From Calothrix sp. NIES-4105 (lineage in GTDB: Bacteria; Cyanobacteriota; Cyanobacteriia; Cyanobacteriales; Nostocaceae): DNA of 64,000 bases. The position numbers and the translations under genes were made by a program. How positions within the stretch are numbered: position 1 is the first letter of the stretch; every line of letters starts with the position of its first letter. Positions 13,424 through 30,282 of the stretch are shown here, in pieces. Where the stretch lies: positions 10,345,717 to 10,409,716 of the forward strand of contig NZ_AP018290.1 of the NCBI RefSeq assembly GCF_002368415.1. Reading direction: 5' to 3'. The notes below the pieces were generated by a model. That model was given only the letters and a program-made list of their open reading frames with translations, made no database searches and was not told the DNA's origin.

Positions 13424-14245
13424 TTAGTTTTTAAGTTCTCCGACAATTGGTTTATTTGCTAAATCTTTTAAATTTACGTCAGTTAATAAGTTTGTCCAGT
13501 CTTGTTGAAGAGTTGGATTTCTTGGTTCGGCAATACGAAGTGCGGCTAATTCGTTTAATGCAGTGTACCATATACCAGTTTGAGCATACACTGCTATTTT
13601 CCCGCGCGGTGTAGTTGCTGCTTTTAACTGTTTTTCTAAACCTGAAGAAAGTGGCATTCTTCGGAGTGAACCGCTAACGAAAATTGGTATGGATGATTTC
13701 GAGGTTTGGCAATAAAGTTTAAAGTACCATTGGTAAGTTTTATTAATCTCTAAGGGTTTTGCTGTTTTTAATTTCAAACCAAAAATACCAGGTTGAGAAG
13801 GTATGTTAAACGTAGTTCGCATCACATCGTTTTTTGTTTCATCTTGCAAAGAAAATTCGCTACTTGATACTTGATGCGATTGAAAAGGTATATAAAACCA
13901 TAAAGTCGGATTTTCTTCAATTGCTAACCTTGAGTTGTAAATTGGTACTAAAGCAGTTAATGGCATTTCTACATTTGGACAGTCACCTCGACTGCCAGTA
14001 CCCTTTCTGCCACTAGGTCTACCTTGGCTGGAACCGTCTGGCTCATTTGTATTAAAATGAATTCGTATATTACCGCTATCGACTTGATTTGTTTGTGCCT
14101 TGACTGGTAAGAAATATAACATAACAATCAAGGTGAGAAAACTTATAAGCACTGAAGTGCTTGTTCCAAGAACCCCAGTGCTTGTTCCGAGCAATTGCCG
14201 CAGCGTCGTTATGATAATTTTGTACTGTGTGTAAGTATTTAGCAT
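13424..14245 (-). CDS. DUF928 domain protein, exported or membrane-anchored
   Basis: About 273 aa from the ATG at 14245; a TTG nine bases upstream is less likely. A hydrophobic N-terminal segment (LISFLTLIVMLYFLPVKA) looks like a signal peptide or anchor. The DUF928 signature GRKGTGSRGDCP and the ALVPIYNSR strand follow. DUF928 genes often sit behind CHAT/CHASE2 genes in filamentous cyanobacteria (from memory), and here it follows such a gene by 66 bp. A 21-bp direct repeat just before the hydrophobic core encodes GTSTGVL-GTSTSVL. The function is unknown. Confidence 0.8.
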   Translation of the reverse strand: MLNTYTQYKIIITTLRQLLGTSTGVLGTSTSVLISFLTLIVMLYFLPVKAQTNQVDSGNIRIHFNTNEPDGSSQGRPSGRKGTGSRGDCPNVEMPLTALVPIYNSRLAIEENPTLWFYIPFQSHQVSSSEFSLQDETKNDVMRTTFNIPSQPGIFGLKLKTAKPLEINKTYQWYFKLYCQTSKSSIPIFVSGSLRRMPLSSGLEKQLKAATTPRGKIAVYAQTGIWYTALNELAALRIAEPRNPTLQQDWTNLLTDVNLKDLANKPIVGELKN

Positions 14246-14311
14246 ATGCCACAAGTAAGGAGAAATATTTAGTTCTATAGTTTCATGTAGATGAGAATAT
14301 TTTTTTATGCA

Positions 14312-16672
14312 TTATTTAATCTGTTGCTTTGACTGAACATACAACCTCAAACCCGCAGTACTTAACAACAAAACTAGCGTCGATGGTACTAACGGCGCCC
14401 AAACCCCTAAAATTAAGACATAAACACAAATTCCATATAAAACTCCACAACTAATAATTGTCGCCAAAATCAGGCGCCGTGTTTCACTAATATTCAAAGC
14501 AATAGTTGCTCCCACCAAAGACCAAGACCATATCCATAAATATTCGCTCCATTTAGGCAATACATTCAATAAAGGGCGATTATTTAAAACAGCACTGACA
14601 ATTTGGCTGACCATATGTGCTTGCACAACCACACCCGCTACTTGACTATGAGGCCATTTTCCTTTCGTATAAGGTGTAGACCAACGAAGGTCATTAAAGC
14701 TGTCGGCAGTTGTACCAATTAGAACAATCTTATCCTTAACTAAATCACCACTTAACTTATTATCCAAAACGTATTGGACGGTTAATTGTTTAATATATGG
14801 AGTTCCTGCACGCCAGTTCAAAAGTACTTGATGACCTCGACTATCTATATTATGATAACCACCACTATCTGACCTCAAATTCTTAAATACCTTATTGCCT
14901 ATTTCTAAATTTTTATCCCAGGTTAAATTAGAACGAATATTCTCAGTCGCTAGATAACGTCTAGCAACTTGAAAACTGAAAGATTTATCAGTTTTGCATC
15001 TAGCTTCTGGTGCAACTGGAGGCGCCATTGCCAAGAGTTGACGACGTAGAATAGTATCAGGGTCAGGAACTACATCGCTAAAACCAATATTTGACGGTGT
15101 AACTTCGGGTGGTGGTGGAACTCCTGGGTCTGCACTGTCTTCACCACCTTTGCAAACAGTGACGAAGTTATCACTTTGCATAACCTTAGCCAAATTTTTA
15201 AAGTTATCTTGAACAGGGTTTTCTCGGTAAATGTCTAAACCAATTACACGGGGGTTAAAATGCTGTATTTTCTCCATAACGGAAGTAAGAGTTCGGTCTG
15301 ATAAAGACATTCCTTGTCTTTCTTGCGGACTTTGCGCTTGAACATCTGCTTCTGTCACCGTTATAACTACGATTCGATTATCAGGTTGTTCTGCAGGACG
15401 AATACGCATGATTTGGTCGAAAGCAGAAAGCTCCCATGATTCCATTATTCCAGTTGCGCGCGCTCCTATTATGAAAGCGCTAATCAGCAAACTCACTTGA
15501 ACTAATGTACTAAATAAAAATGAATTGGGTAAATGACTGTTATGTGCAATTCTGTTGGTTCTCCAAATTAAAGGTGCTGCTGCTGGGTTTTGACAAATTA
15601 CAGGTAACCAACTTGCACAAGGATATTCGTCTTCTAATCCTTGTAACCTTGCTTGTGCTTCTCGCACTGACATATATAAAGACTTACCAGTTGCAAATGC
15701 TTCGATAAAGTTTTTTAAAAATGCCTGTGCTATGACATCTGGAACTGGTTCACGCATGACTATAATTTGCGGAATATGTAGCGATGCTAAATCACGCGCG
15801 AGTCCAAGACCATCACACGAATTAAAGATTGCTAAACTTAAACCATTAGATAATGCTGCTTGTAAACCGTTTTTTAACTGTAAAATCGTTAAACTATCTG
15901 TTTTGTTGATTTGAATAGTACCCGTGTCTCCATTTAATTGACTATAGCTATGTCCAGCAAAGAAAATAATATCCCATCCTTGCTTATCCCAAAGCCAATA
16001 ATCTAACTCTCGACGTTGTGGTTCTACTAAAAATTTTGTTTGTGCGTTTGTCAGTTCTAAAATTGCTCGGTCTTTTTGTATATCAATTCCCTCGCTGTTT
16101 CCCAAAATTGCTAAAATTCGCATTGGACGATTTCTAGTTGCAACGGGTTTGATATATTCAAACTCTCTAGAACTGAGACACGCTACTGCATTTATATAAT
16201 CTTCAAAAAAATCCCATAAATGCCACGGAATTTTCCGAACTTCTTCGTTCTCTGTCTCGAATATAAATTTTATCTCATCCAAGGGCGCCAGCTTGGTGCG
16301 TAACTTTTGAGTAACATATATAAACGATAAAGATTTAAACCATAAATTAATATGATGCTGTAACTGTTTACATAAACTGCCAAATTCTATCAGCGAAACG
16401 TTAGTGATATCTTCTTCTTCTACTTCAACGTCACTATCATATTGGAAATCATTTCTAAATCTTCGCCAACTTGTATCTTGATACAATGCTTCGTGGAGCA
16501 AACAGTAAAGTAGCTGCCAACGTCGATATAAGTCTGAAATTTCTGGTGTAGCAGGCAAACTTCCTACCATTTGTATTGGTACATTAGTCTCTTCCCATAA
16601 TTGAACTGTAACAGTCGAAAAACCCTGTCTGAAATCACCTTTACCGAAATTTAGTATTACTAATTTTGTCAT
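14312..16672 (-). CDS. CHAT protease domain fused to CHASE2 sensor and membrane helices
   Basis: 786 aa. The N-terminal half is a CHAT (caspase/HetF-related) protease with catalytic dyad His241 in FFAGHSYS and Cys286 in FNSCDGLG. The ASWLPVICQNP end box lies at 353-363. TM1 is at about 386-405, followed by an extracytoplasmic CHASE2 sensor domain (about 410-690; AFDQIMRIRP and IVVITVTEAD are typical). Two to three C-terminal helices follow (about 700-778). The CHAT domain thus sits in the cytoplasm with its sensor outside. It overlaps the upstream DUF1822 gene by 4 bp (ATGA), so the two are translationally coupled in an operon with the sigma factor. Confidence 0.88.
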   Translation of the reverse strand: MTKLVILNFGKGDFRQGFSTVTVQLWEETNVPIQMVGSLPATPEISDLYRRWQLLYCLLHEALYQDTSWRRFRNDFQYDSDVEVEEEDITNVSLIEFGSLCKQLQHHINLWFKSLSFIYVTQKLRTKLAPLDEIKFIFETENEEVRKIPWHLWDFFEDYINAVACLSSREFEYIKPVATRNRPMRILAILGNSEGIDIQKDRAILELTNAQTKFLVEPQRRELDYWLWDKQGWDIIFFAGHSYSQLNGDTGTIQINKTDSLTILQLKNGLQAALSNGLSLAIFNSCDGLGLARDLASLHIPQIIVMREPVPDVIAQAFLKNFIEAFATGKSLYMSVREAQARLQGLEDEYPCASWLPVICQNPAAAPLIWRTNRIAHNSHLPNSFLFSTLVQVSLLISAFIIGARATGIMESWELSAFDQIMRIRPAEQPDNRIVVITVTEADVQAQSPQERQGMSLSDRTLTSVMEKIQHFNPRVIGLDIYRENPVQDNFKNLAKVMQSDNFVTVCKGGEDSADPGVPPPPEVTPSNIGFSDVVPDPDTILRRQLLAMAPPVAPEARCKTDKSFSFQVARRYLATENIRSNLTWDKNLEIGNKVFKNLRSDSGGYHNIDSRGHQVLLNWRAGTPYIKQLTVQYVLDNKLSGDLVKDKIVLIGTTADSFNDLRWSTPYTKGKWPHSQVAGVVVQAHMVSQIVSAVLNNRPLLNVLPKWSEYLWIWSWSLVGATIALNISETRRLILATIISCGVLYGICVYVLILGVWAPLVPSTLVLLLSTAGLRLYVQSKQQIK

Positions 16673-17892
16673 GGCGCCTTGCCAATGAGTGCATCAAGTA
16701 TGAAGTCTTCTTTTATAATTACACCGTTTAGTAACAACTGAACGCTAAAAGATTTTCCGAAAGGAAACTTAAATCTTTTTAATTGGATGTAATTGTCATG
16801 ATTCCTGGAAACTACTTCTTGAACTGTAGCCCCACTAGGTAACAGTAGAGAAAGTTTTATTCCAGTTGGCAAATATAGTTCTCCGCTTGTTGGATATAAT
16901 TGCACACGAATATTTACTTTGTCATCTATCCCAGGTGATAAACCGATTAATAGTACAACAGCTTGATTACCTAACTGCATTCCTAAATCAATTAACTTGG
17001 CGCCTTGGGTACGTGCGGTCGTTAAAGCGGTATCATGTCTAAATTGAGCAGCTAAAGTTCTTTGTTGCAGGTTCAATAAAGCATCAACATGTTGCCAACC
17101 TGCTTCAAAAGTGTCTTTTAGCCATAAGCTTAAATTTGTAAAATTATGGGAGGGATTACTAACATTAGCTCTTTTTTGATATAACTCACGTCTCCATACA
17201 TTAGATGCGATGAAAGCATTCCACTCTTCAAAATCGGAATATAAACGGGGTGAGTAAATATTTGGGTGACTTAATAAAGTTAGCAACTGTTGCGTGCGTT
17301 CTGTTGATGTCGTTGATAAAGGTTGAAATTGTAATTGCGGTTGACAGTACTGACGCGCGACCCACATGATATTTAAGTCTTCAATCAGGAATGAGTTTTC
17401 TAGACAGTATGTTCTCGTTAGTTGATTGAAGGAAGCATGATTAATAATTTGTTGGTGAGTCGTATATCCCCATACTCGTAACCATGATTGCTCTAAATCT
17501 AACTGTACAGCTAAGTAATATTGTCCAGCCCAATCAGGAATATTAACCCATTCTGCTTCGACTTCAAATTCCGAGGGATTACTTTTATCTTTAGGTATAA
17601 TTACTAATTTGGTGTTATTAACAGTAACATTACACCCGTTGACTACTTCCCAAAATGTAGCTAAATCATCCAAACCAGGAGTTGTTATATCACTAAATTC
17701 AGAACTATCCTTTAACCAATTTACAAAAATATTCAAAGATAAATAATTTAAGAACGCACGCCAACGCGCGGCGGTCGTAGAATATATTTGTAAAGAAGTT
17801 TGCTGCCATGCGTCACATTTAGCTTGGGGTGATATTTCTAACCACAATTGGTTAGGATAAATAGTTTGCAATTCCAACAATTTGTAACTCAT
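16669..17892 (-). CDS. DUF1822 family protein
   Basis: 407 aa, soluble. The conserved C-terminal block begins LGMQLGNQAVVLLIGLSP, includes NIRVQLYPTSGELYLP, and ends VVSRNHDNYIQL-KRFKFPFGKSFSVQLLLNG. The same block occurs in the protein at 20596-21756. It lies between the sigma-like gene (23 bp upstream) and the CHAT gene (4-bp overlap). No enzymatic motif is visible. From context it could be the anti-sigma or adaptor partner, or the CHAT substrate; this is inference. Confidence 0.8.
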   Translation of the reverse strand: MSYKLLELQTIYPNQLWLEISPQAKCDAWQQTSLQIYSTTAARWRAFLNYLSLNIFVNWLKDSSEFSDITTPGLDDLATFWEVVNGCNVTVNNTKLVIIPKDKSNPSEFEVEAEWVNIPDWAGQYYLAVQLDLEQSWLRVWGYTTHQQIINHASFNQLTRTYCLENSFLIEDLNIMWVARQYCQPQLQFQPLSTTSTERTQQLLTLLSHPNIYSPRLYSDFEEWNAFIASNVWRRELYQKRANVSNPSHNFTNLSLWLKDTFEAGWQHVDALLNLQQRTLAAQFRHDTALTTARTQGAKLIDLGMQLGNQAVVLLIGLSPGIDDKVNIRVQLYPTSGELYLPTGIKLSLLLPSGATVQEVVSRNHDNYIQLKRFKFPFGKSFSVQLLLNGVIIKEDFILDALIGKAP

Positions 17893-17915
17893 ATTATTAG
17901 TTTAATAGAAAATCA

Positions 17916-19331
17916 TTATAAATAGTTATTGCGATTTATTAGCCAATTATCAAATAAAATGGCTAATTTATTTTCAACTGCATCTAACGCATTTACATCT
18001 AGGTGCATACTTGTTTCGATTTCTGCTTTCAAGGCGCTTATTAAGTTTTGTTTAATTGTATTATCATTCTCAATTAAACTATAAGAGATACTATCAATAA
18101 TATTAGTTTGAGCAACTCTATCTAGAGTATCGAAAAATTCTTGCTGGGTATATACCTCTAGACAATCGTTCATAGCATCTTTAATTACCTCTACATTATA
18201 GTCATCAACCTTAACCTCTGTAGAATGCATTTGCCAATGATAAATTAGGCTGTTTAATAAGTTTCTTGTACATTTGCCCAAATAGCGAGCAACTTGGTAT
18301 TGTTTTTTAATATCTGGATATTTACTTGTGATGGCGCCTGCAATTTCATTTTGAGTTAAACTTAAACCATGCCAAAGCTTAAGCATCAATTGTGCTTGCT
18401 CAGGTAACGCTAAAAATAATTCTTTAATTATTAATTGCGTTTCTTGCCACTCTTCGTGTTGAATTAAGGTTTCTAAAAGAGTCGGATTATAATCAGTGAT
18501 ATCATAGTCATTAAGAGATGTGAACTTTTTTGTTCGATAATCGCGCGCGCAAGAAATACAAGTTGAGAGGATTTCTTGAATTTGGGCAGTAGATTGGGAA
18601 GCTAACTTAAACTCGTGACAGCGTTGATTATAGTAAGAGGTAATACGTTCAAGCTGTAAAGAAGGAAGATTAAACGCGCGACTAGTTGGGTTATATACAG
18701 GTTGATGCATTTCATCAAAGCATTGCCAAGCAAGATAGTAACAATCTATTGAATTAATACCCCTTGCGAATAAAGCTTCTTTAAGTTCCTTAGCGGTCAA
18801 ATCTTTAAGAAGACCATAATCTGAGAACTTCTCTCGCTTTGCTTCAATATCCTGAGTGTAAATAAAGTTACTCGTAAAACGTAATATAGCTGTTTTCGCG
18901 TAGGCATTTAAATTTGCTTGAGGGTGTTCAATATCAAAACTTTTAAATAATCTACTCGGTGGGTTAATTGCTAAATTAGCAATTTGAAACAATTCATCGA
19001 GTGGATACTTGTGCCGAATAAAACTAAACCGTTGTAAAGTTTTGTGTGCCGCCCATAAACAAGTTTCTTGTAAATAAGATGATAAATGTGCTGTTGCTTT
19101 GTTGAAGCAATCAGGAGACAATTGCTGTCCAGATTCTTCATATAATTTAACTATTTTGACAAAATAGTGCGCCCAATACTCTGGACTAACCTCAGAGGAT
19201 GTTTGTACCAATCGTTTGATGTGGCGTTCTAATTGTAAATCAGTTTGCCAAATCAAATTTAGGTGTGTATTAACCCCCTGAAAGCTCAAAAACGTCGAGA
19301 ATTTTTGAACAGTATCGTCACGTTTTTTCAC
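17916..19331 (-). CDS. Sigma-70-like factor of the CHAT/DUF1822 operon
   Basis: 471 aa from a GTG at 19331 that follows a GGGGG tract by 7 bp; an upstream GTG at 19382 would add 17 residues. I prefer 19331 because related proteins start just before an FSTFLxF segment. A central helical region and a C-terminal region 4-like helix-turn-helix (LPEQAQLMLKLWHGLSLTQNEIAGAI, about 315-345) suggest a divergent sigma factor. It heads the operon sigma - DUF1822 - CHAT/CHASE2 - DUF928. Regions 2 and 4 are poorly conserved, so DNA binding is a prediction. Confidence 0.65.
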   Translation of the reverse strand: MKKRDDTVQKFSTFLSFQGVNTHLNLIWQTDLQLERHIKRLVQTSSEVSPEYWAHYFVKIVKLYEESGQQLSPDCFNKATAHLSSYLQETCLWAAHKTLQRFSFIRHKYPLDELFQIANLAINPPSRLFKSFDIEHPQANLNAYAKTAILRFTSNFIYTQDIEAKREKFSDYGLLKDLTAKELKEALFARGINSIDCYYLAWQCFDEMHQPVYNPTSRAFNLPSLQLERITSYYNQRCHEFKLASQSTAQIQEILSTCISCARDYRTKKFTSLNDYDITDYNPTLLETLIQHEEWQETQLIIKELFLALPEQAQLMLKLWHGLSLTQNEIAGAITSKYPDIKKQYQVARYLGKCTRNLLNSLIYHWQMHSTEVKVDDYNVEVIKDAMNDCLEVYTQQEFFDTLDRVAQTNIIDSISYSLIENDNTIKQNLISALKAEIETSMHLDVNALDAVENKLAILFDNWLINRNNYL

Positions 19332-19382
19332 ATCCAAACCCCCATAAGCGTTTGGTGCGTGGTGCCACAAATAGATAAACAC

Positions 19383-19820
19383 ATTAAATTAGGGGCAATA
19401 GCGCTATGCACCATATTTCAATAGTCCTTTCGTATATATTAAAGACCAATGATAGCCTTCAACTTACTTATGGGCGCCATAACCAATAGAATATGCAATT
19501 AAGCTAAAATTTTCTGAAATCACGCTTGCGGATGGCTACTAACACATCTATTTTTTACTATTTTCGTAAGCTTGTATCTTTTCATACAGTGTCGCTACTG
19601 TCTCACCGCTAAATAACTGTTCTCTTATTTTTCGTTTACGTTTACGAAGAGCGTTCTCAACACCAACCTACAAAAATTCCGTATTGTAAACTTATGTAAA
19701 AAAGTTGGATTTTGCATAAAACGTCTCAACTTGCAGAGAGAAGTAATGGTAGGTAAGGCTTTTAAGCTGCGCCTGCGTATATTAAGTACAAACACTAATA
19801 TATAGCCATAGACGATTACT
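19383..19820. promoter_or_regulatory. Divergent spacer between two sigma-factor genes
   Basis: This 438-bp AT-rich spacer separates the two divergent sigma/DUF1822 modules and must hold both promoters. It contains one GGCGCC site (19472) and a CGTTTACGTTTACG direct repeat (about 19627-19640). I cannot assign -35/-10 boxes. A short open frame on the minus strand here overlaps the start of the plus-strand gene and looks non-coding. Confidence 0.4.
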
Positions 19821-20558
19821 ATGATGACTCTTGATGAAACCCAGACTGCATACAATGAGGCGCCTTCTCGACTACAACTGTTAGCCATAGAAGCTAAAAA
19901 TCAAAAACCCGATAGTCCACAAAGACATCGTGCGGTTACTGCTTTAATTCAGGAGCTTTGGAGACAGCCAACATTTGGAATTTTGAGAAAAAGCCTTAAA
20001 GCAAAATATGGCTATCTGTTGGATGGTCTTTTTGAAGACTTATTTAATGATGCACTTCAGGAAACGTTTATCGCAATTAGTCGATATATCGATAAGTTTG
20101 ACTCACAACGCCCATTGCTGCCTTTGATTTGCAAAATCATTAGCAACAAATTTAGTAATCTTTACAAAAAGCATTGCAAATACGGCGTTACACGCATTCC
20201 TAAGTCTAAAGGCAATAATTCAAAACAAGGTCAAGTAATATCTTTGGATGGATTAGACGAGTTTGTACAAGATAATATCATGAACAAACACTTTTTAAAT
20301 TCTGGAGGTAAGTCAATATCTAACTGCGATTTCTTAAGAGAATTATTAATTGAAGACCCCGATAATAAGTTTCAAGTATCCGTTAGAGGTAAGCCTCATA
20401 TTACTTTTCAGCGTATAGCTATATACTTATATGTAAAAGGCAAAAATATGCAACAGTTAGCTTCGGAACTAGACGTTCCTTATCAAACACTAAATAGTTT
20501 TTTTAAAAGAAAATTAGAAAAACTAGAGCCATATTTTCGAGAAAAATTACAACATTAA
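19821..20558 (+). CDS. ECF-like sigma-70 family factor
   Basis: 245 aa. A region 2-like segment (LFEDLFNDALQETFIAISRYIDKFDSQRP region, about 70-105, then ICKIISNKFSNLYKKH) is followed by a variable linker. A C-terminal region 4 helix-turn-helix follows (LASELDVPYQTLNSFFKRKL, about 212-231). It is shorter and more ECF-like than the divergent factor at 17916-19331. It is followed 37 bp later by a DUF1822 gene, repeating the sigma - DUF1822 order. Its promoter target is unknown; autoregulation of this locus is a common possibility. Confidence 0.75.
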   Translation: MMTLDETQTAYNEAPSRLQLLAIEAKNQKPDSPQRHRAVTALIQELWRQPTFGILRKSLKAKYGYLLDGLFEDLFNDALQETFIAISRYIDKFDSQRPLLPLICKIISNKFSNLYKKHCKYGVTRIPKSKGNNSKQGQVISLDGLDEFVQDNIMNKHFLNSGGKSISNCDFLRELLIEDPDNKFQVSVRGKPHITFQRIAIYLYVKGKNMQQLASELDVPYQTLNSFFKRKLEKLEPYFREKLQH

Positions 20559-20595
20559 ACTCAACTCTTACAAGTAACCCTATTAAGGAGTAATA

Positions 20596-21756
20596 ATGAA
20601 TACTACAAATACTGCTGACGCTTTAACTTTTACAGTACCACTTTCGTTTGAAGCCCACTCCCTAGCCCAAATGTATAGTAAACTGCAAGACCGTCCAAAT
20701 AAAGCCAAGCGAGTATACTTAAATACTTTAGCAATATACGCGGTTGACCATTATTTTCGATGCATGGGTTTTGCAACAAACTGGGAAGGTAGTGATAGTC
20801 GCAAACCAATTTTACAAAAGTTTCTGGATATTGCCGATTTAAATGTTAGAGGTGTAGGTAAATTTGAATGTCGTCCAATATTACCAGGCGCCGACAAATT
20901 AGAAGTACCATGTGAAGCATGGGATGAGCGCGTCGGTTATGTTGCAGTACAATTGACTCAATCTCTAAAAGAAGCAACAATAATAGGTTTTGTACCGCAA
21001 ATAGAAGAAAATCAAGGGATTATACCATTAAATCAGCTGCGCGCGTTTGATGAGTTTCCAGAATACTTGATGAAAGTAAAAAATGAAGGAATCACAGTTA
21101 AAGTACCGCAACTTGTAAATTTATACGAATGGTTAAATAATAAATTTGAAACTCATTGGCAATCAGTAGAAGAATTTTTTAGCACTCAAACATATAGTAT
21201 TGCTTTTCGGAACCGTGGCATTATATCAGAACAGATTAATCCTAATGATACCAGCAGTCTCAAACAGTTTATTGGGACTTTATATGCAAATCAGCGCAAC
21301 ACAAATTCTACACAAACAACTTATCCTACTCATTTAGAACCAGTAACAGCATTAAGTCAGCTTATCGAGTCAACTACAGATGAAGAAACTCGTTGGAAAG
21401 CAATTGAACTTCTATGGAAAATAAAACCCGAACATCCATCTGCTGCAACCAGAAGAGTCACAGACTTAGGAATGCGTTTGGCAGGATATCCAGTTGCCCT
21501 CATGGTAGCTATCTTACCAAAACACGACGGTAAAAGAGGTGTTTTACTAAGGGTTTATCCAATGGGTAATCAAGCATATTTACCACAAAACCTCAAGTTA
21601 ATTGGTTTGGATGAAAATGGTCAAACACTGCTCGAGGTTCAAGCGCGCGGGCAGGACAATTATATTCAGTTTAGGTTCAACGCTGACCCAAAAGACAAAT
21701 TTAGCGTTCAAGTATCTTTAGGTGAAGCCAGTGTCACCGAACATTTCATAGTCTAG
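20596..21756 (+). CDS. DUF1822 family protein
   Basis: 386 aa, a paralogue of the protein at 16669-17892. The C-terminal block starts DLGMRLAGYPVALMVAILP, with LLRVYPMGNQAYLPQNL and ARGQDNYIQFRF. The ATG is preceded by a clear Shine-Dalgarno AAGGAG (20584-20589). It probably forms an operon with the upstream ECF-like factor. The matching CHAT gene of this module (21976-24660) is convergent rather than co-directional. No catalytic motif is seen. Confidence 0.8.
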   Translation: MNTTNTADALTFTVPLSFEAHSLAQMYSKLQDRPNKAKRVYLNTLAIYAVDHYFRCMGFATNWEGSDSRKPILQKFLDIADLNVRGVGKFECRPILPGADKLEVPCEAWDERVGYVAVQLTQSLKEATIIGFVPQIEENQGIIPLNQLRAFDEFPEYLMKVKNEGITVKVPQLVNLYEWLNNKFETHWQSVEEFFSTQTYSIAFRNRGIISEQINPNDTSSLKQFIGTLYANQRNTNSTQTTYPTHLEPVTALSQLIESTTDEETRWKAIELLWKIKPEHPSAATRRVTDLGMRLAGYPVALMVAILPKHDGKRGVLLRVYPMGNQAYLPQNLKLIGLDENGQTLLEVQARGQDNYIQFRFNADPKDKFSVQVSLGEASVTEHFIV

Positions 21757-21822
21757 AAAAGTATTGGTACCCCCCTAGCCCCGCTTATAGCAATCCGCTC
21801 ATCAGTTATAAAATCATCCATT

Positions 21823-21851
21823 GTAGAGACGCGATTAAATCGCGTCTCTAC
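21823..21851. repeat. GTAGAGACG palindrome
   Basis: A 29-bp copy with core CGATTAAATCG, between the convergent DUF1822 and CHAT genes. It could double as a bidirectional terminator. Confidence 0.9.
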
Positions 21852-21975
21852 CGGGATATATTTTTTACAAATCATCTAGGACTTTCAGTAAAAATATTTA
21901 AAAAAACTTTACAATTGTTTAAAATCAAACATATTATTAAGGATGGCGCCATGTAGTTGTTTAGTCTCACCCAAC

Positions 21976-24660
21976 CTACATTTTTTCTTCGATGAAGTCG
22001 CAGGAGGAGTTTAGGCATTGTACTTTAACTAGTACTCCTAAGCCGTTGTCGCGAATAGGTTTTCTGCTGCCTTTTTCTTGTTGAGTATAAAATTGAATTG
22101 CTGCTGTGGCGCCTTCTGCTTTAAAAATATTAAGATTACTTAGTATATTATTTCTGAGTGATGTAGGAGTTGGTTGTCCTGTAATGTTGCTTAGACCTTG
22201 AATGATTACTTGTACTGCATCATAAGACATGACTGTAAGCCAGTTGATTTTTTCTGTTCCCCAAATTTGCAAAGCTTCTCTCTCAAAATTAGATTTAATT
22301 CTATGCCACGGTACTGCTGTTATCAGGTTAGTTTTTTCAGATGCGAAGCCAAAATCTTTATCCCGTGTAATAGCAGAGTCATATAAAGTACTTGTGCCTA
22401 ACAGTATTAAGTTATTATTTTGAATTTTAGAGACTTCTTTGACTACTTCTAATGCTTTATTTAAGACATCTTCAGTACCGGAAGGAGCCAGTAATAAAAC
22501 ATTCGCATTCTTTTGTCGCGCTTCATTAATAATTTGTTTGGCATCAAAAGTTTTTAGGTCGTATGGAGGTATATCTTGTTGATTAGTTACTTGACGAAAT
22601 TTGTCTTTTATTGATTCACTGTAAGATTCCCCTGCATCGTATGCTACTACTGCTTTGATTGGTGTTGATGGGATTTTTTTAAGTATATATTGATTTAAAT
22701 TTGCTACTGCAATACTATCACTTGTTACTGTGCGAAGAACTGTGTCTGGTAGGCTACTTAATTGAGTGGAGGTACTTGTAGGAGAAATAACAAGAATTTT
22801 ATCCTTGTATACTAAATTTACAGCAGCTTTGGTAAGCTCACTTCTGTAATGACCAATCACTGCTAAGATATTTTGCTGGTTATTATCATTTACTAGTTTA
22901 CGTGCAACTTGTGTTGTTGTTTGAAGGTTGTTGCCATCATCTACTATTTTTAGTTGTAATTGTCTGTTGTTGATAGTACCTGTACAAGTTGGAGTTTGAT
23001 TGTTTTTGATGGATTGTACCATTTCGTCTACGCTGCCGCAGTTTAGTTTACTTTGAGCGTGAGCAACTCCTCGTAAAATTTCTTCTGCAGTGTCTAGTTT
23101 ACTAGTAATGGGGACACTAACTGCTATTTGAATAATATCATCTTGCCCTTCCTTTGCTGCCGCGTTTGCTGCTACAATAGCGTTATTTAGATAAATTAAA
23201 CTTTCGGGATCATTAGGAGTTTGCTTTAATGAGTTTCTAAATTCGTTTGTAGCTTTGTCCCACTCTCCATTTTTAAAGGCAATTATTCCGTTTTCTTTGT
23301 TTGTGTTACTTTTATTTTTCAGTAATATTTTCTCTCCTCGACTGAAGAGGTTGTCTATATTTTTATCTATACTTGGTGTGCTTATTGGAGAAGGTGAGGG
23401 TACGAGTGTTTGAGTTATTGATGATGGGACTGGTGTTGGTTGTGTTGGTGTTGATGGTAAAAATATCTGTTTGATTAAGAACAATAATAAGGCGCCTGCT
23501 AATATTAAACCTACGAATATTGCAACTTTATGTGAACGCCAAAGTCTTTTTATACCACGTTGTATTCTGACGTGGAAGGGTTGGCGCCATTGAAGCGACC
23601 TTTCAGCAGGGTTTTGACAAATTACTGGTAACCAAGAAGCGTAAGGATATAGATTTTCCATATCTTCTAACTTTTCTTGCGCTTTTCGCACTGCTAGGTG
23701 GAACTTTTCCCCGCGCGAAAATAAACGCAAGAATTCTTTTAAAAAGTATGAAGCGACTTCATCCGGTACTGGTTCACGCATAACTATCACTTGCGGTATA
23801 CCCAGTTCGGTAAGTTTGCTTGCTAACCCTAACCCGTCACACGAGTTAAAAATTGCTAGTTTTAAACCATTCTCTTTAGCTCTTGTAAAAGCATTTCTCA
23901 AATCTCTTAATGATGGACTATCTATATTATTAAGTTGAATAACTCCGTCGTTTCCTTCCCTCAAGCTAGAACTATGTCCTGCGAAGCATAAAATATCCCA
24001 CGAACTATTACGTAACTTATCACCTAGTTGTTGTCGAGTCGGTTGTCTTAAGGTTTCTACCATCGACCCCGGTAAGTTGGTGAGTATTTCTACGTCGGTT
24101 TGAACGTTAATCCCGTCATCGTTACCTAAAATTGCTAAAATCTTAACTGGCGTTTTAAGTGGTTCTGATGGTAGATTGTATCTGGCGCCTAATGATAGCC
24201 AAGCTCTTCTACGGTTTTGAAATAGTCTCCATAAATGCCAAGGAAGTTTTTTCAAGAGTTCATCGTTTGTTTGAAAAATAATCCGCGCGGTTTCATCTCT
24301 ACTTACTTCTTCTTCAACATATATACGTAGTTGTCCTATAGATGGATGCTCAAACCATTCTATCAATCTGTCTTCGAGCGCTTTACCTGCTGCCCGACAT
24401 TGAGCTGGTGTAGATACGTTAGTTGTTTGGTTCGGGTCGATATCAAAACCCCTTGCTATACCAATAACTCGTCTTACCGCATCTAGATTATTATAATTTT
24501 GTTGAAAATCATTATATAGCCTTGGAATATCAGGCGCCGCTGGAAGCTGTCCAGTTTCCTCCTTGTAAACATTCCCATTTTCTTCTCGTATTCGCAAGGT
24601 AACAGGAAAACCTTCCTCAAAATTACCGCTGGCGATAGTAAATATAACTACCTTGCTCAT
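21976..24660 (-). CDS. CHAT protease domain fused to a periplasmic-binding-protein-like receptor
   Basis: 894 aa. The CHAT domain has catalytic His229 (CFAGHSSS) and Cys274 (FNSCDGLG), plus the ASWLPVICQNP end box. One transmembrane helix follows (about 378-398), then a Pro/Ser/Thr-rich linker (402-430) and a short TPR-like helical stretch (about 435-500). The rest is a type-1 periplasmic binding fold like branched-chain amino-acid receptors (ILAVIGHYRSELTKAAVNLVY, VISPTSTSTQLSS, VLLLAPSG). The predicted topology puts the ligand-binding part outside and the protease inside. The N-terminal 360 residues are clearly paralogous to the CHAT/CHASE2 protein. The ligand and the protease substrate are unknown. 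Confidence 0.85.
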   Translation of the reverse strand: MSKVVIFTIASGNFEEGFPVTLRIREENGNVYKEETGQLPAAPDIPRLYNDFQQNYNNLDAVRRVIGIARGFDIDPNQTTNVSTPAQCRAAGKALEDRLIEWFEHPSIGQLRIYVEEEVSRDETARIIFQTNDELLKKLPWHLWRLFQNRRRAWLSLGARYNLPSEPLKTPVKILAILGNDDGINVQTDVEILTNLPGSMVETLRQPTRQQLGDKLRNSSWDILCFAGHSSSLREGNDGVIQLNNIDSPSLRDLRNAFTRAKENGLKLAIFNSCDGLGLASKLTELGIPQVIVMREPVPDEVASYFLKEFLRLFSRGEKFHLAVRKAQEKLEDMENLYPYASWLPVICQNPAERSLQWRQPFHVRIQRGIKRLWRSHKVAIFVGLILAGALLLFLIKQIFLPSTPTQPTPVPSSITQTLVPSPSPISTPSIDKNIDNLFSRGEKILLKNKSNTNKENGIIAFKNGEWDKATNEFRNSLKQTPNDPESLIYLNNAIVAANAAAKEGQDDIIQIAVSVPITSKLDTAEEILRGVAHAQSKLNCGSVDEMVQSIKNNQTPTCTGTINNRQLQLKIVDDGNNLQTTTQVARKLVNDNNQQNILAVIGHYRSELTKAAVNLVYKDKILVISPTSTSTQLSSLPDTVLRTVTSDSIAVANLNQYILKKIPSTPIKAVVAYDAGESYSESIKDKFRQVTNQQDIPPYDLKTFDAKQIINEARQKNANVLLLAPSGTEDVLNKALEVVKEVSKIQNNNLILLGTSTLYDSAITRDKDFGFASEKTNLITAVPWHRIKSNFEREALQIWGTEKINWLTVMSYDAVQVIIQGLSNITGQPTPTSLRNNILSNLNIFKAEGATAAIQFYTQQEKGSRKPIRDNGLGVLVKVQCLNSSCDFIEEKM

Positions 24661-24759: not shown

Positions 24760-27700
24760 TTAAGGGGAGGTAGCGCTTAATTCCATGATTTTCTCGAAGT
24801 GAAAGTCATCGACTAGTTTGCGTAATGCTGAAGTTAAGTTTGCGTGTTCACTAGGAATTTGTTTTAAAAGTTGTAAAATTCTTTCATCACTACACTCACA
24901 AGCAGCGATATAAAGCGCTTTTTGCCATTGAGGTGACATTATTTTCAAGTTACTTGTAGTTAATTTAACTGTTTGTGGGCGGGTACTAAGGTCTGGTTTA
25001 TTGCTTTCGTCAATGTACACTACCCCCAAATGCTTGGCTAGTTTGTCAAATATTTCCTCAGCTTGAAACGGTTTGCTTTGGAAGTCGTCGCATCCTGCCG
25101 AAAATATTGCGGCTCGTTCTTCTTCGAGAGCGCTTGCTGTTAATGCGATAATTTTAGTAGTTTGTCCAATTGAAGCTTTGATTTGGCGTGTTGCTTGATA
25201 ACCATTTAATAAAGGCATTTGCATGTCCATGAAGATTAAATGGGGTTTCCATTGGCGCCATAACTCTAAACCTTGTTCTCCATTTTGAGCAACTTTTACT
25301 GCAAAACCTAAAGGAGTTAGTAGTCGTGTTAATAAGTGACGGTGTTCCCAGGAGTCTTCGACTATTAATATACGATAAATTGGCTCTGTCGGCGCCAGTT
25401 TGATTTGTTGACTGTGTGGAGTTTTATTAACTTTTATTTCTGGCTGTAATTTCACTGGAATTTTGAAGGAAAATACGCTGCCTTGGTTAATGATGCTTTT
25501 AACTTTAATTTCACCACCCATCAATTGAACGAAACTGCGACTTACTGATAAACCTAACCCTGTACCTTGCTGCATTTTACTAGTGTCCGATTGCACGAAA
25601 GCTTCAAATAAGTGATTGATTTCGGAAGCTGCAATACCGACGCCTGTATCGCTAATTTCAAAGCTTAATACCTCATTGTCACATGTAACGTGTAATTTTA
25701 CAGTGCCTTGAGATGTAAATTTAATCGCATTACTAATTAAATTCAGCAACACTTGCCGTAGTTTTCTTTCATCAGCAGTAATATATTGGGGTACATTCTG
25801 CGCGCGTGTAAAAATAAGAGTTAGATTTTTAACATCAGCGAGTTGAGTCATAGTTTCTTCTAACTCATCAAGCACGTTATATAAATCAAAGGCAGTTTCA
25901 TTAAGCTTAACTTTACCTGCTTCGATTTTAGACATTTCTAAAACATCGTTAATTAAACCAAGTAAATGTTGACCGTTACGGTTGATAATATCAAGATATT
26001 TACTTTGGGTTTTGGAACAAGTTTCACGCTGCATAACTTGAGTAAAACCTAGAACGCTGTTTAACGGAGTTCTCAGTTCATGACTCATACGTGCGAGAAA
26101 TTCGCTTTTTGCTCGGTTGGCAGTTTCAGCATTTAACAAAGCTTGCTGTAACTTAGCTTCTGCTTTTTTACGGTTGAAGAGCGCGCGTTTATGTTCGGTT
26201 ATATCTGTTGCTGTTCCTAAAATTTCTTTGATTTTACCATTCTCCGCGCGAGAAAATACTGTATCTCGACTTAATAACCAACGCCATTCACCATTTTTAT
26301 GCTGTATACGATACTCAAATTCAATAACTTCACCATCCCTAGCATTCGCGAGACGTTGGCAATGGTCGGCAAATTTAACTAAATCATCAGGATGCATTAA
26401 CCTAGGCAAAAAACCATTGCCCATTGCTTGAACTTGATAAGGTCGATATCCCAATGAGGTATAAACTTTCTTATTTATATAGATGTTGCGTGCTTCAATT
26501 AAATTGTAAACGTATAAAACACTTGGATTTGCTTGAATTATAGCTTCTAAAAAACGCTGATTATCAGCAAGTGCCATTTCCGTCTGCTTACTCAATCCAA
26601 TATCTTTAATTACACCAATTATATATTGTTCCTTATCATTAATATCACATACTAGCGAGAAGTCGATTTTTGCCCACTTCACTTGATTATTGTTAGCGAA
26701 TAAACAAGCTTCAAATGAAACGCTTTTAGTTGTACTTCGTAGCAGTTTATCTATAGATGATTGATAGATACTTAAGTATTCTGGTAGTATAATTTCCTGT
26801 AGGCTTTTTTGCAATAACTCGGACTCGTCATACTCTAAAATTTGACAAAAATGATGATTTACTTGCAGTAATTTTCCTGATAATGTAGCTTGCGTAATTC
26901 CTATTGATGCCTGTTCAAAAATAGAACGATATCGATTCTCGCTTTCACGTAATTGCGTTTCAATTTGCTTTCGCTTATCAATTTCGGCTTGCAACTGCTC
27001 ATTTAATTGCTTTACTTCTAATGTCTTAGCATCTGCGAAATTTTGTAACGATTCAAAAGTTTGCCAAATCTCAACTGGATTGATTGCTTCTAAAATTCGA
27101 GTTTGAGTGATAATCCCTAGGGAATCATCATCCCACACAACGAGGCGCCGTAATTTGTGAGTTTGCATCAAGTGATGTGCAGTCCACATTGAGTCACCAG
27201 GTTTGATTTTAAATAGCGGTTGACTCATGACCTTATTAGCATGGGTGGTTGCTAAATCTAAACCTTGATGGCAAAACTTTACAATATCACGTTCAGTGAT
27301 GATACCAATTGGTAATTTTGATGGCGCCATTACTGAATCAACTATTACCACACAACTGATACAGTTTTGCGCCATTATTTGAGTCAACTGTAAAAGCGAC
27401 GAAGTTGAGGATGCACTAATTACTTCGGTTGACATAACCTCCGATACTTGCCTATGCTTTAGCAAGTCAGCTGGTTTTATCGTATCTCGAATCGTTTCAT
27501 ATGTAATCATTCCCACCATCTGATTAGTTGCTGACATTACTGGTAGATGACGAATGTGATTTTGACGAAGCAATCGAATTACAGTAAAAATATCTTTAAT
27601 TTCATCTTCTTTAACCGTCAGCAGTCCAGATGTCATGACTTCTGATACTTGGGTATCATTAAAAACAACGCCTTTTGCTGCAGCTTTGACAATATCTCGC

Positions 27701-27900
27701 TCGGTTATAATACCCTTTAAATTAGAATGATTATGAGAATCTTGTGTCAGAGCATAACTACATCGCTGCTGATTCATTAAAGCCACAGCATTAGTAAGTA
27801 GCATATCTGACGGTATAATCAACGGTTGGCGGTTAATTGCTAAATTAACATCTGGACTTAACATGCTTGACTTGGGATTGAATCTATAAATTTTACTCAA
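24760..27900 (-). CDS. Hybrid histidine kinase with four CBS domains and two PAS domains
   Basis: 1046 aa, no membrane segment. Four CBS motifs come first (about 24-75, 85-142, 150-210, 223-275; two contain GIITERDIVK), then a coiled coil (about 292-320). PAS/PAC units follow at about 322-440 and 448-568. HisKA has SHELRTPLN and His607; HATPase_c spans about 710-815 with DTGVGI and GTGLGLS. The receiver (about 842-958) has phospho-acceptor D892 and K943. A helical C-terminal tail (about 975-1040) is common in such kinases but lacks an HPt histidine motif. CBS pairs usually bind adenosyl ligands, so this kinase may read energy charge (inference). It stands alone. Confidence 0.9.
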   Translation of the reverse strand: MSKIYRFNPKSSMLSPDVNLAINRQPLIIPSDMLLTNAVALMNQQRCSYALTQDSHNHSNLKGIITERDIVKAAAKGVVFNDTQVSEVMTSGLLTVKEDEIKDIFTVIRLLRQNHIRHLPVMSATNQMVGMITYETIRDTIKPADLLKHRQVSEVMSTEVISASSTSSLLQLTQIMAQNCISCVVIVDSVMAPSKLPIGIITERDIVKFCHQGLDLATTHANKVMSQPLFKIKPGDSMWTAHHLMQTHKLRRLVVWDDDSLGIITQTRILEAINPVEIWQTFESLQNFADAKTLEVKQLNEQLQAEIDKRKQIETQLRESENRYRSIFEQASIGITQATLSGKLLQVNHHFCQILEYDESELLQKSLQEIILPEYLSIYQSSIDKLLRSTTKSVSFEACLFANNNQVKWAKIDFSLVCDINDKEQYIIGVIKDIGLSKQTEMALADNQRFLEAIIQANPSVLYVYNLIEARNIYINKKVYTSLGYRPYQVQAMGNGFLPRLMHPDDLVKFADHCQRLANARDGEVIEFEYRIQHKNGEWRWLLSRDTVFSRAENGKIKEILGTATDITEHKRALFNRKKAEAKLQQALLNAETANRAKSEFLARMSHELRTPLNSVLGFTQVMQRETCSKTQSKYLDIINRNGQHLLGLINDVLEMSKIEAGKVKLNETAFDLYNVLDELEETMTQLADVKNLTLIFTRAQNVPQYITADERKLRQVLLNLISNAIKFTSQGTVKLHVTCDNEVLSFEISDTGVGIAASEINHLFEAFVQSDTSKMQQGTGLGLSVSRSFVQLMGGEIKVKSIINQGSVFSFKIPVKLQPEIKVNKTPHSQQIKLAPTEPIYRILIVEDSWEHRHLLTRLLTPLGFAVKVAQNGEQGLELWRQWKPHLIFMDMQMPLLNGYQATRQIKASIGQTTKIIALTASALEEERAAIFSAGCDDFQSKPFQAEEIFDKLAKHLGVVYIDESNKPDLSTRPQTVKLTTSNLKIMSPQWQKALYIAACECSDERILQLLKQIPSEHANLTSALRKLVDDFHFEKIMELSATSP

Positions 27901-28848: not shown

Positions 28849-30234
28849 TTACATTTTATGGTGTAACCAGTCTTTAATTTCCTGCGCGATCCACATACAT
28901 TCTTGGGCGCTTAAACCAATACCAAACGAAAATCGTTTACTATCGGTTTGGATGGTAATCATTTCTTTTTCTTGATGGCTTTCGAGTTGAAGGTTGTCTT
29001 CTTTAGCTAGACGTATAATACTTTGAAATACGTCTCTAATTTCTCTAACTTTGGCTGTTCTAATGTTACGGCGAAATGTAAATATCCATAGTTCTATGCC
29101 AAATTGCTCTTCATTGAAAAAAATTCTTTGATTGCCAAAGTCTGATATTACAAACTGGTCTATAATTGCTAACCATATCAAAACCAGTGGCAAACTTACT
29201 GCCAATGATACCATTGATGTTGTGACTATGCCGACTGCTGTAAATGTCAAAAAGCCTAGTCCAAGTGTTCCTATTATTAAGTATTTAACTATTAAAGCAA
29301 TTACTCGTATGTTATCTATACGTTTTCTCGGAAGGATTATATTTAATTTTCTCGGAGTTTTTCTGATTTGGACTAAGCTATGAATAGGTTTGCGGAAAGG
29401 TTGAAAAATATGACCTGAATTGTTTAGAGTATTTGATTCAAGAGCTTCTAATGCAACAGTAGCACTACTTAAACGCCTTTCTACTGATGGTTCGATAATT
29501 TTTTCTATCCAAGTTATAAAATTATCTTTAATATTTACTTTATCGTGAAATTGTATTTTTAAATCGCGAACAGGTAAGTCAGCAGGGGGAATACCTGTTA
29601 GCAGGTGAATTATTGTTGCACCTAGTCCGTATAAGTCAGATGCAGGAACTGCTTTACCACCAAATTGTTCCATTGGTGCATAACCATATGTTCCTACAAC
29701 GGTGAATGTAACTCCTTCTTTTGCTGCTTTGTCTTGAACGGCGCCGAAGTCAACTAGATATATATCGTTGTCTTCTCCTAAAATTAAATTACTCGGTTTA
29801 ATGTCGCGATGCAGGACAGCGGGATTTAGTTTGTGTAGATATATTAAGATATTTAAAACTTCAGTTGCAATTTTTTTAACTTCTTTCTCGCTAAATCTTT
29901 TTCCTTGCACTAATAATTCTTTAAGAGAGTTGCCGGGAATATATTCTTCGACGAGTCCGAACCAAAGTACCCGGTCATCTATCGAAAAATAATCTATATA
30001 CTTGGGAATTTTTGGATGTTCAAGATGCTTAAGAATTTGAGCTTCACGTTCAAATAACTTTAAATCATCCCACTGTACCGTTCCACCAAAAGCAAGTAAT
30101 TTTACAACTACACGTGAATCTTTGGTACTATCAACACTCAAGTCTGTTGCTAACCAGGTTTGACGTGCTGCATTATTACCAAGTTGACGTTCAAGTTTAT
30201 AACGATTTTGTATTATTTGTTCTGTTTGAAGCAT
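28849..30234 (-). CDS. Serine/threonine protein kinase with C-terminal membrane domain
   Basis: 461 aa from the ATG at 30234; a TTG five codons upstream is less likely. It has a Hanks-type kinase domain (about 9-270) with HRDIKPSN (catalytic Asp about 144) and a DFG loop (about 162-164). The ATP loop is degenerate (LGNNAARQTW), as is common in this cyanobacterial group. A hydrophobic region of about two helices (about 325-370) precedes a C-terminal domain of unknown type (EEQFGIELWIFTFRR). It is paralogous to the next gene upstream, sharing long identical stretches such as VTFTVVGTYGYAPMEQFGGK. The substrates are unknown. Confidence 0.88.
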   Translation of the reverse strand: MLQTEQIIQNRYKLERQLGNNAARQTWLATDLSVDSTKDSRVVVKLLAFGGTVQWDDLKLFEREAQILKHLEHPKIPKYIDYFSIDDRVLWFGLVEEYIPGNSLKELLVQGKRFSEKEVKKIATEVLNILIYLHKLNPAVLHRDIKPSNLILGEDNDIYLVDFGAVQDKAAKEGVTFTVVGTYGYAPMEQFGGKAVPASDLYGLGATIIHLLTGIPPADLPVRDLKIQFHDKVNIKDNFITWIEKIIEPSVERRLSSATVALEALESNTLNNSGHIFQPFRKPIHSLVQIRKTPRKLNIILPRKRIDNIRVIALIVKYLIIGTLGLGFLTFTAVGIVTTSMVSLAVSLPLVLIWLAIIDQFVISDFGNQRIFFNEEQFGIELWIFTFRRNIRTAKVREIRDVFQSIIRLAKEDNLQLESHQEKEMITIQTDSKRFSFGIGLSAQECMWIAQEIKDWLHHKM

Positions 30235-30282
30235 TTTGTGCTGTCCCAATACAGCTAAATTACAGACGATATATATAAAGTA

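Follow-up and report, generated by a model that had tools for sequence, protein, structure and literature searches.

The window analysed here, a 64,000-nucleotide stretch of the genome of Calothrix sp. NIES-4105 (contig NZ_AP018290.1, positions 10,345,717 to 10,409,716), contains two head-to-head gene modules, A and B, each associating a sigma-like gene, a gene encoding a DUF1822 protein and a gene encoding a sensor-protease in which a caspase-like CHAT domain follows an EACC2-like N-terminal domain. The module is real and conserved, and its outline had appeared in print earlier (excerpts of PMC8195603). We report here that sigma and DUF1822 form its fixed core, that the protease is exchanged around this core and that DUF1822 also exists in a membrane form, beside a sigma gene, in genomes without CHAT matches; these points, together with a conserved arginine in the DUF1822 linker and the putative fold of the N-domain, are new as far as the literature was searched. 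The gene set, its linkage and co-occurrence, the catalytic dyad, the membrane-compatible hydrophobic stretches of the proteases, the co-inheritance of sigma and DUF1822 and the linker arginine are direct observations. In the model that we propose, and to which we give an even chance of being correct, DUF1822 is an anti-sigma protein that a sensor-gated CHAT protease would cut, thereby freeing the sigma factor.

Linkage of sigma, DUF1822 and CHAT genes

The 12.04-Mb genome to which the window belongs has 82 CHAT matches, including fragments, and 27 DUF1822 matches, two of the DUF1822 genes being matched as two separate pieces; it repeats the unit about twenty times. Since, in addition, four Calothrix records (L116–L119) contain the same head-to-head pair, the modules are not a chance arrangement. 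Linkage was assessed with our own longest-open-reading-frame calls in three sets of loci: (i) 25 further stretches around the DUF1822 and CHAT copies of the same genome; (ii) 29 short and 55 longer stretches around DUF1822 matches in a 117-genome sample, referred to as the phylum set; (iii) the best 80 of 498 cyanobacterial loci (L116–L195), referred to as the named set, which were chosen for their similarity to the module A DUF1822, so that CHAT linkage is overstated there. In 177 of 193 cases, the DUF1822 gene is immediately preceded, on the same strand, by a sigma-like gene, with a median gap of 17 bp (own genome, 22/25; short phylum stretches, 27/29; longer phylum stretches, 49/55; named set, 79/84), compared with 11 of 1295 other genes in the same loci. 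The next gene after DUF1822 encodes an EACC2-type CHAT protein in 140 of the 193 cases (18, 15, 32 and 75, respectively). When the phylum sample is considered alone (84 copies), the corresponding numbers are 76 and 47.

The EACC2 N-domain is present in 37 of the 117 genomes, all of which belong to the 39 DUF1822-bearing genomes of the window's class (49 genomes in the sample); 10 of these 49 genomes have neither EACC2 nor DUF1822, and EACC2 was found in none of the 68 genomes of the sample outside the class. This co-occurrence gives a Fisher probability of 8e-9 over the 49 genomes, relatedness being ignored. Conserved linkage across genomes, which the preliminary description of the window had set beforehand as a test of its proposal, is thus clearly present.

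Three classes of sigma-like genes

The sigma assignments are the weakest of the gene calls in the window. Neither sigma-like gene has a Pfam match over cut-off, and both stay below the cut-off of the NCBIfam model TIGR02937. However, two relatives of the long gene (that of module A) exceed this cut-off (59.2 and 51.1 bits versus 42.9), and a sigma profile scores over its curated cut-off in relatives from L008, L010 and L020. With the CAS_III-E_sigma model (NF041236), the module B gene scores 19.9 bits against a cut-off of 100, and the module A gene is not among the matches listed.

Using our own iterated profiles, seeded with the window genes, we distinguished three classes: class A (mostly 380–590 amino acids), class B (210–330 amino acids in the own genome) and class C (about 475 amino acids). 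The two window genes fall in different classes, A and B. Class C is tied to class A with 98.4% probability in a profile comparison, and profiles also link classes A and C with the sigma genes of the CHAT-free group described below. TIGR02937 gives marginal matches in two of the six class C proteins scanned (E-values of 0.023 and 0.12, the best score being 14.3 bits), and no Pfam sigma match was found in the two class C proteins scanned.

A fixed sigma–DUF1822 core and an exchangeable protease

We built a tree of 167 DUF1822 proteins, obtained from the 193 by filtering on length and E-value (192 left) and then on similarity. On this tree, the three sigma classes require two changes, the minimum possible; L020, labelled class A, groups weakly with class B rows. 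For the same 121 rows bearing both labels, the protease class requires seven changes and the sigma class two. Consistent with this, the EACC2-CHAT gene is replaced by a CHAT gene of another type in seven loci (a label that comes from a profile of TPR-CHAT ends, one such gene being on the opposite strand), by a gene for a trypsin-like protein in three loci, and by a Peptidase_C14 caspase gene (PF00656) in three loci, L017, L103 and L106, whose sigma genes belong to classes C, B and A, respectively. Altogether, the small number of sigma-class changes and the larger number of protease changes indicate that DUF1822 tracks its sigma gene, the sensor-protease being the exchangeable part. In L017 (3026–10501), a class C sigma gene and DUF1822 are followed by two C14-caspase-like genes instead of a CHAT gene, the second being recognized by a local profile only.

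DUF1822 relatives in genomes without CHAT

In phylum members with small genomes (1.7–2.2 Mb), probably Gastranaerophilales (Vampirovibrionia) judging by phylum and genome size, the DUF1822 N-domain starts a protein of about 800–1300 amino acids (loci L056–L060 and L196–L215). This N-domain aligns with the cyanobacterial DUF1822 profile with an hhalign probability of 94.3% (E-value of 1e-7), and PF08852 scores over cut-off in all three N-domains scanned alone; for L056, the full-length scan listed no DUF1822, whereas the N-domain alone matched. Of the 24 proteins, 17 match the cyanobacterial profile, the others matching only a profile derived from five members of the set. The N-domain is followed by a long stretch that appears acidic by eye, a transmembrane-like helix and a TonB C-terminal match in the two proteins scanned with Pfam, with PF13103 exceeding its cut-off in one of them. 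A sigma gene of 184–198 amino acids, ECF-like (extracytoplasmic function; one gene of the set was scanned with Pfam), follows at a distance of 12–106 bp, in the same orientation, in 22 of the 24 loci; of the remaining two, one gene is truncated where the stretch ends and the other has a broken frame. A 25th, L058, extends beyond the end of its contig and is not part of the count. No CHAT match was found in the 22 genomes of this set, and the W..W linker motif is absent from all its 24 proteins. In L056 and L057, the sigma gene is followed by a gene for a zinc-ribbon protein, one of which has an AAA/STAND-like ATPase match.

Sigma/anti-sigma pairs are typically arranged in this way: next to the sigma gene lies a gene whose product spans the membrane once and has a conserved head in the cytoplasm. 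This layout is our strongest ground for reading the DUF1822 N-domain as a sigma-holding domain. Moreover, since the pairing with sigma exists without CHAT, it is independent of the protease.

The sensor-proteases

The catalytic residues proposed in the preliminary description, H241/C286 in module A and H229/C274 in module B, are present and lie in conserved columns: among the 129 relatives aligned, 127 have His and 127 have Cys. In L020, which is one of the two exceptions, the CHAT domain lies outside the 450 residues aligned. Hydropathy analysis reveals hydrophobic stretches at residues 385, 678 and 739 of the module A protease and at residue 379 of the module B protease; the stretch that follows the CHAT domain in both (around residue 380) suggests that, given the usual topology, the protease domain faces the cytoplasm and the sensor lies on the outer side of the membrane. 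The domains C-terminal to the common CHAT core vary (CHASE2, Peripla_BP_6, nSTAND1-WD40), and pentapeptide repeats also occur on this core. The two modules had been said to differ only in the sensor; in fact, the first 195 residues of their proteases share 32% identity and their DUF1822 proteins 23%, and their sigma genes belong to different classes.

Some loci have unusual arrangements. In L020 (3429–6170), the architecture is reversed, the CHAT domain being the C-terminal part of a protein with pentapeptide repeats whose gene adjoins DUF1822 and a clear ECF sigma gene. In L018 (547–2454), a CHASE2 protein of 635 amino acids without a CHAT match is encoded opposite a class A sigma gene and a shortened DUF1822 (267 amino acids), perhaps a decaying module. 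Finally, in L067, L068 and L072, DUF1822 is preceded by large TPR-CHAT genes of the same orientation, together with another large gene in L067 and L068, and a sigma gene lies beyond them in L072 and L068; these large genes may be regulated cargo.

The DUF1822 protein and its linker

Pfam assigns no function to DUF1822. The AlphaFold2 model of the module A protein (mean predicted local distance difference test, pLDDT, of 85.5) comprises an N-terminal alpha/beta domain (residues 1–182), a helical region (197–245), a linker and a C-terminal Ig-like domain (295–398). Residues 271–290, in the linker, have pLDDT values of 52 and 50 by blocks. Arg285 lies in this region: its position holds Arg in 148 and Lys in eight of the 167 rows (R/K 156/167) and ranks 7th of 299 positions in conservation, which makes it a candidate cleavage site in a flexible linker, as judged from the alignment. 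A W..W motif is also found in the linker of 118 of the 167 cyanobacterial proteins. Cyanobacterial DUF1822 looks soluble, hydropathy exceeding 1.9 in one protein of 167. The model of the N-domain resembles, with weak scores, a degenerate nuclease fold and not a TPR protein. The DUF1822 profile gave no match to PDB sequences at E-values up to 1.

Comparison with known systems

The preliminary description knew of no function described for this gene set. EACC2-caspase modules are, however, the subject of an eLife study of 2021 by Kaur et al. The excerpted text of this study (PMC8195603; eLife 2021;10:e70394) describes EACC2-caspase proteins with variable C-termini, including CHASE2 and STAND, reports an ECF sigma and DUF1822 in the majority of the TRADD-N-independent EACC2-caspase neighbourhoods, and proposes activation by autopeptidase activity, with sigma as the output. 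By description, the window shares with it the constant N-domain, followed by a caspase-like domain with His and Cys, the variable C-terminal domains and the adjacent sigma and DUF1822 genes; it is the same gene set in every feature that can be compared with these excerpts. Two differences emerge: DUF1822 is called a TPR protein there, whereas it models here as alpha/beta plus Ig-like domains; and the autopeptidase favoured in that text contrasts with our proposal that DUF1822, which tracks sigma, is both anti-sigma and substrate.

Other systems resemble the module in their logic, as far as excerpts of the corresponding papers describe them. In type III-E CRISPR, Csx29 cuts the sigma inhibitor Csx30, which relieves the inhibition of CASP-sigma (PMC10028731). 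This system, Craspase, likewise combines a CHAT protease, a two-domain sigma inhibitor and an ECF sigma, but Csx29 is a TPR-CHAT protein gated by Cas7-11 and RNA, whereas the proteases described here are EACC2-CHAT proteins with a fused sensor. TPR is over the Pfam cut-off in neither CHAT protein of the window, Cas7-11 itself having not been searched for. Csx30 was absent from the fold lists, which excludes nothing, and the lack of PDB matches to the DUF1822 profile comes from a copy not verified to contain Csx30. In type III CRISPR, CalpL cuts the anti-sigma factor CalpT, releasing the sigma factor CalpS (PMC12751052), a similar chain of sensor-protease, anti-sigma and sigma release, although CalpL has a SAVED sensor and a Lon protease gated by cA4. 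HetF, which can cut PatU3 (PMC12288457), is another cyanobacterial protease cutting a regulator, of CHAT type according to the preliminary description and to the match of the NCBIfam HetF model (NF045509) to the CHAT part; with this model, the module B CHAT protein scores 22.3 bits versus a cut-off of 1200, no match being listed for module A, and the excerpts of PMC12288457 do not mention a sigma factor. Finally, the layout of RseA-type membrane anti-sigma factors (named in PMC10028731) is shared by the CHAT-free proteins, in which the DUF1822 N-domain, a transmembrane helix and a TonB-like domain are encoded beside sigma, but cyanobacterial DUF1822 looks soluble and the membrane sensor sits on the protease.

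A model of the module and its alternatives

Three elements of the proposed model are inferences: the binding and inhibition of sigma by DUF1822, the role of DUF1822 as the protease substrate and the place of the cut site in the linker. In this model, each module would be a membrane-to-gene signalling switch: (i) DUF1822 would keep its partner sigma inactive; (ii) a periplasmic or outside signal would be detected by the sensor (CHASE2 or the periplasmic-binding domain), which, via the transmembrane helix, would activate the cytoplasmic CHAT cysteine protease; (iii) cleavage by the protease would occur in the flexible linker that connects the DUF1822 N-domain to the Ig-like C-domain, most likely after the conserved arginine (R285 in module A); (iv) the N-domain would be lost or remodelled, leaving sigma free. 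This logic is supported by the anti-sigma-like layout of the CHAT-free relatives and by the linker arginine. The DUF1822 gene is beside and co-oriented with a sigma gene, as are genes of anti-sigma factors, in cyanobacteria as in the CHAT-free set.

Several observations weigh against this model. In 53 of the 193 cases, the gene after DUF1822 is not an EACC2-CHAT gene (some of these lie at the end of the sampled stretch), and 14 of the 167 tree rows have no adjacent same-strand sigma gene, although in five of them a sigma gene lies elsewhere in the locus. Fifteen of the 177 upstream genes are of class C, whose sigma identity comes from profile similarity to class A; leaving them out, sigma is directly upstream in 162 of 193 cases. 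The linker arginine is equally kept where no protease gene is nearby (R/K in 20 of 21 such rows) and is less conserved in B-type rows (R/K 37/45), where the linker alignment is less sure; a structural role of this residue is one possibility, action of the protease in trans another. The N-domain resembles no solved anti-sigma domain among the matches listed. Lastly, the excerpts of PMC10028731 place the Csx29 cut in a Csx30 loop without an essential residue, so that a strict arginine site is not implied by the Craspase precedent.

Alternatively, the caspase part could cut its own protein, the output passing through a TRADD-N partner and/or sigma, with DUF1822, in our reading of the excerpts of PMC8195603, an adaptor rather than a substrate. 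Such auto-proteolysis is the published prediction for the gene set, and the same CHAT core bears nSTAND1-WD40 and pentapeptide repeats, as in conflict systems; we nevertheless consider it rather unlikely, and it leaves unexplained both the pairing of DUF1822 with sigma where CHAT is missing and the conserved linker arginine. That the protease cuts sigma itself, activating a pro-sigma or destroying it, with DUF1822 as a scaffold joining the two, seems improbable to us: the length of class A sigmas, and the two sigma-region-4-like matches found in two scanned relatives, leave room for extensions, but class B and the CHAT-free sigmas are short and offer little to remove. It is very improbable, in our opinion, that DUF1822 is an effector nuclease whose PD-(D/E)XK-like N-domain, once freed, attacks DNA in a suicide or defence response, sigma merely controlling the expression of the unit. 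The D...(D/E)xK active site is incomplete in the B-type protein (D81, E91 and R93, with Arg for Lys), and the PD-(D/E)XK acids are missing from A-type and C-type DUF1822.

Organization of the window

The two modules diverge from a common upstream stretch of 438 bp, as seen in the list of open reading frames (Table 1), which agrees with the two head-to-head modules of the preliminary description; DUF928, CHAT, CHASE2, both DUF1822 domains and Peripla_BP_6 are over the Pfam cut-off, sigma being the exception. On the minus strand, module A comprises the sigma-like gene, DUF1822, CHAT-CHASE2 (overlapping DUF1822 by 4 bp) and DUF928. The DUF928 protein has a single hydrophobic N-terminal stretch (hydropathy peak at residue 33), by eye a probable signal peptide, and in 43 of 116 cases EACC2-CHAT is followed, within two genes, by a DUF928 gene of the same strand. 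Module B has sigma and DUF1822 on the plus strand and a convergent gene for CHAT with a periplasmic-binding domain; a protease gene convergent with its DUF1822 is also found in L009 and L116–L118.

Table 1. Features of the two modules (positions in the window)
Feature	Position	Strand	Evidence
DUF928 protein, downstream of module A	13424..14254	-	PF06051 2.6e-59
Module A sensor-protease: EACC2-like N-domain, CHAT, transmembrane helix, CHASE2	14312..16672	-	PF12770 2.6e-13; PF05226 5.4e-62
Catalytic Cys286 codon, module A protease	15815..15817	-	computed from reading frame; column conservation
Catalytic His241 codon, module A protease	15950..15952	-	computed from reading frame; column conservation
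Module A DUF1822 (A-type)	16669..17892	-	PF08852 5e-80; AlphaFold2 pLDDT 85.5
DUF1822-A inter-domain linker, residues 267-298, partly low confidence, contains Arg285	16999..17094	-	
Arg285 codon, candidate P1 site	17038..17040	-	linker conservation; position from reading frame
Module A sigma-like gene, class A	17916..19331 (frame can start at 19382)	-	TIGR02937 1.2e-8, below cut-off; class profile
Upstream region common to the two divergent modules, with two conserved leader blocks	19383..19820	.	alignment with L116-L119
Module B sigma-like gene, class B, short, ECF-like	19821..20558	+	TIGR02937 3.8e-6 and CAS_III-E_sigma 5.5e-4, both below cut-off
Module B DUF1822 (B-type), D81 and E91-x-R93 kept	20596..21756	+	PF08852 5.1e-78
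Module B sensor-protease: EACC2-like N-domain, CHAT (H229, C274), transmembrane helix, Peripla_BP_6	21976..24660	-	PF12770 3.2e-15; PF13458 6.8e-17

The upstream region contains two leader blocks, at about 19465–19483 on the sigma A side and 19775–19795 on the sigma B side, which are kept in the four relatives L116–L119 and each occur once in the genome. In two of these four records, a gene of 359 amino acids is inserted in this region (L116, 5286–6365; L119, 5340–6419); by eye, its product resembles a secreted trypsin-like protease. The modules are flanked, again by eye, by a CBS-PAS hybrid histidine kinase gene (24760–27900) and a Ser/Thr kinase-like gene (28849–30249).

Significance

Tentatively, and with somewhat more doubt than confidence, we suggest that DUF1822 represents a novel type of anti-sigma factor with a degenerate nuclease-like fold, ancestral to Cyanobacteriota, which would still be a TonB-like transmembrane receptor in the CHAT-free members and, in the photosynthetic ones, a soluble holder released by caspase-superfamily proteases with interchangeable sensors, the largest genomes having about twenty parallel signal-to-sigma channels. 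The module would thereby be a caspase-based counterpart of two-component signalling, akin in its logic to Craspase and Calp but outside CRISPR. If the model is correct, it assigns DUF1822 a concrete role and a partner, together with a domain map and a residue to target by mutation, and it predicts many natural substrates for CHAT proteases. The protease/anti-sigma/sigma logic of two CRISPR systems would then be a general signalling scheme, and large cyanobacterial genomes would run many parallel sensor–caspase–sigma pathways.

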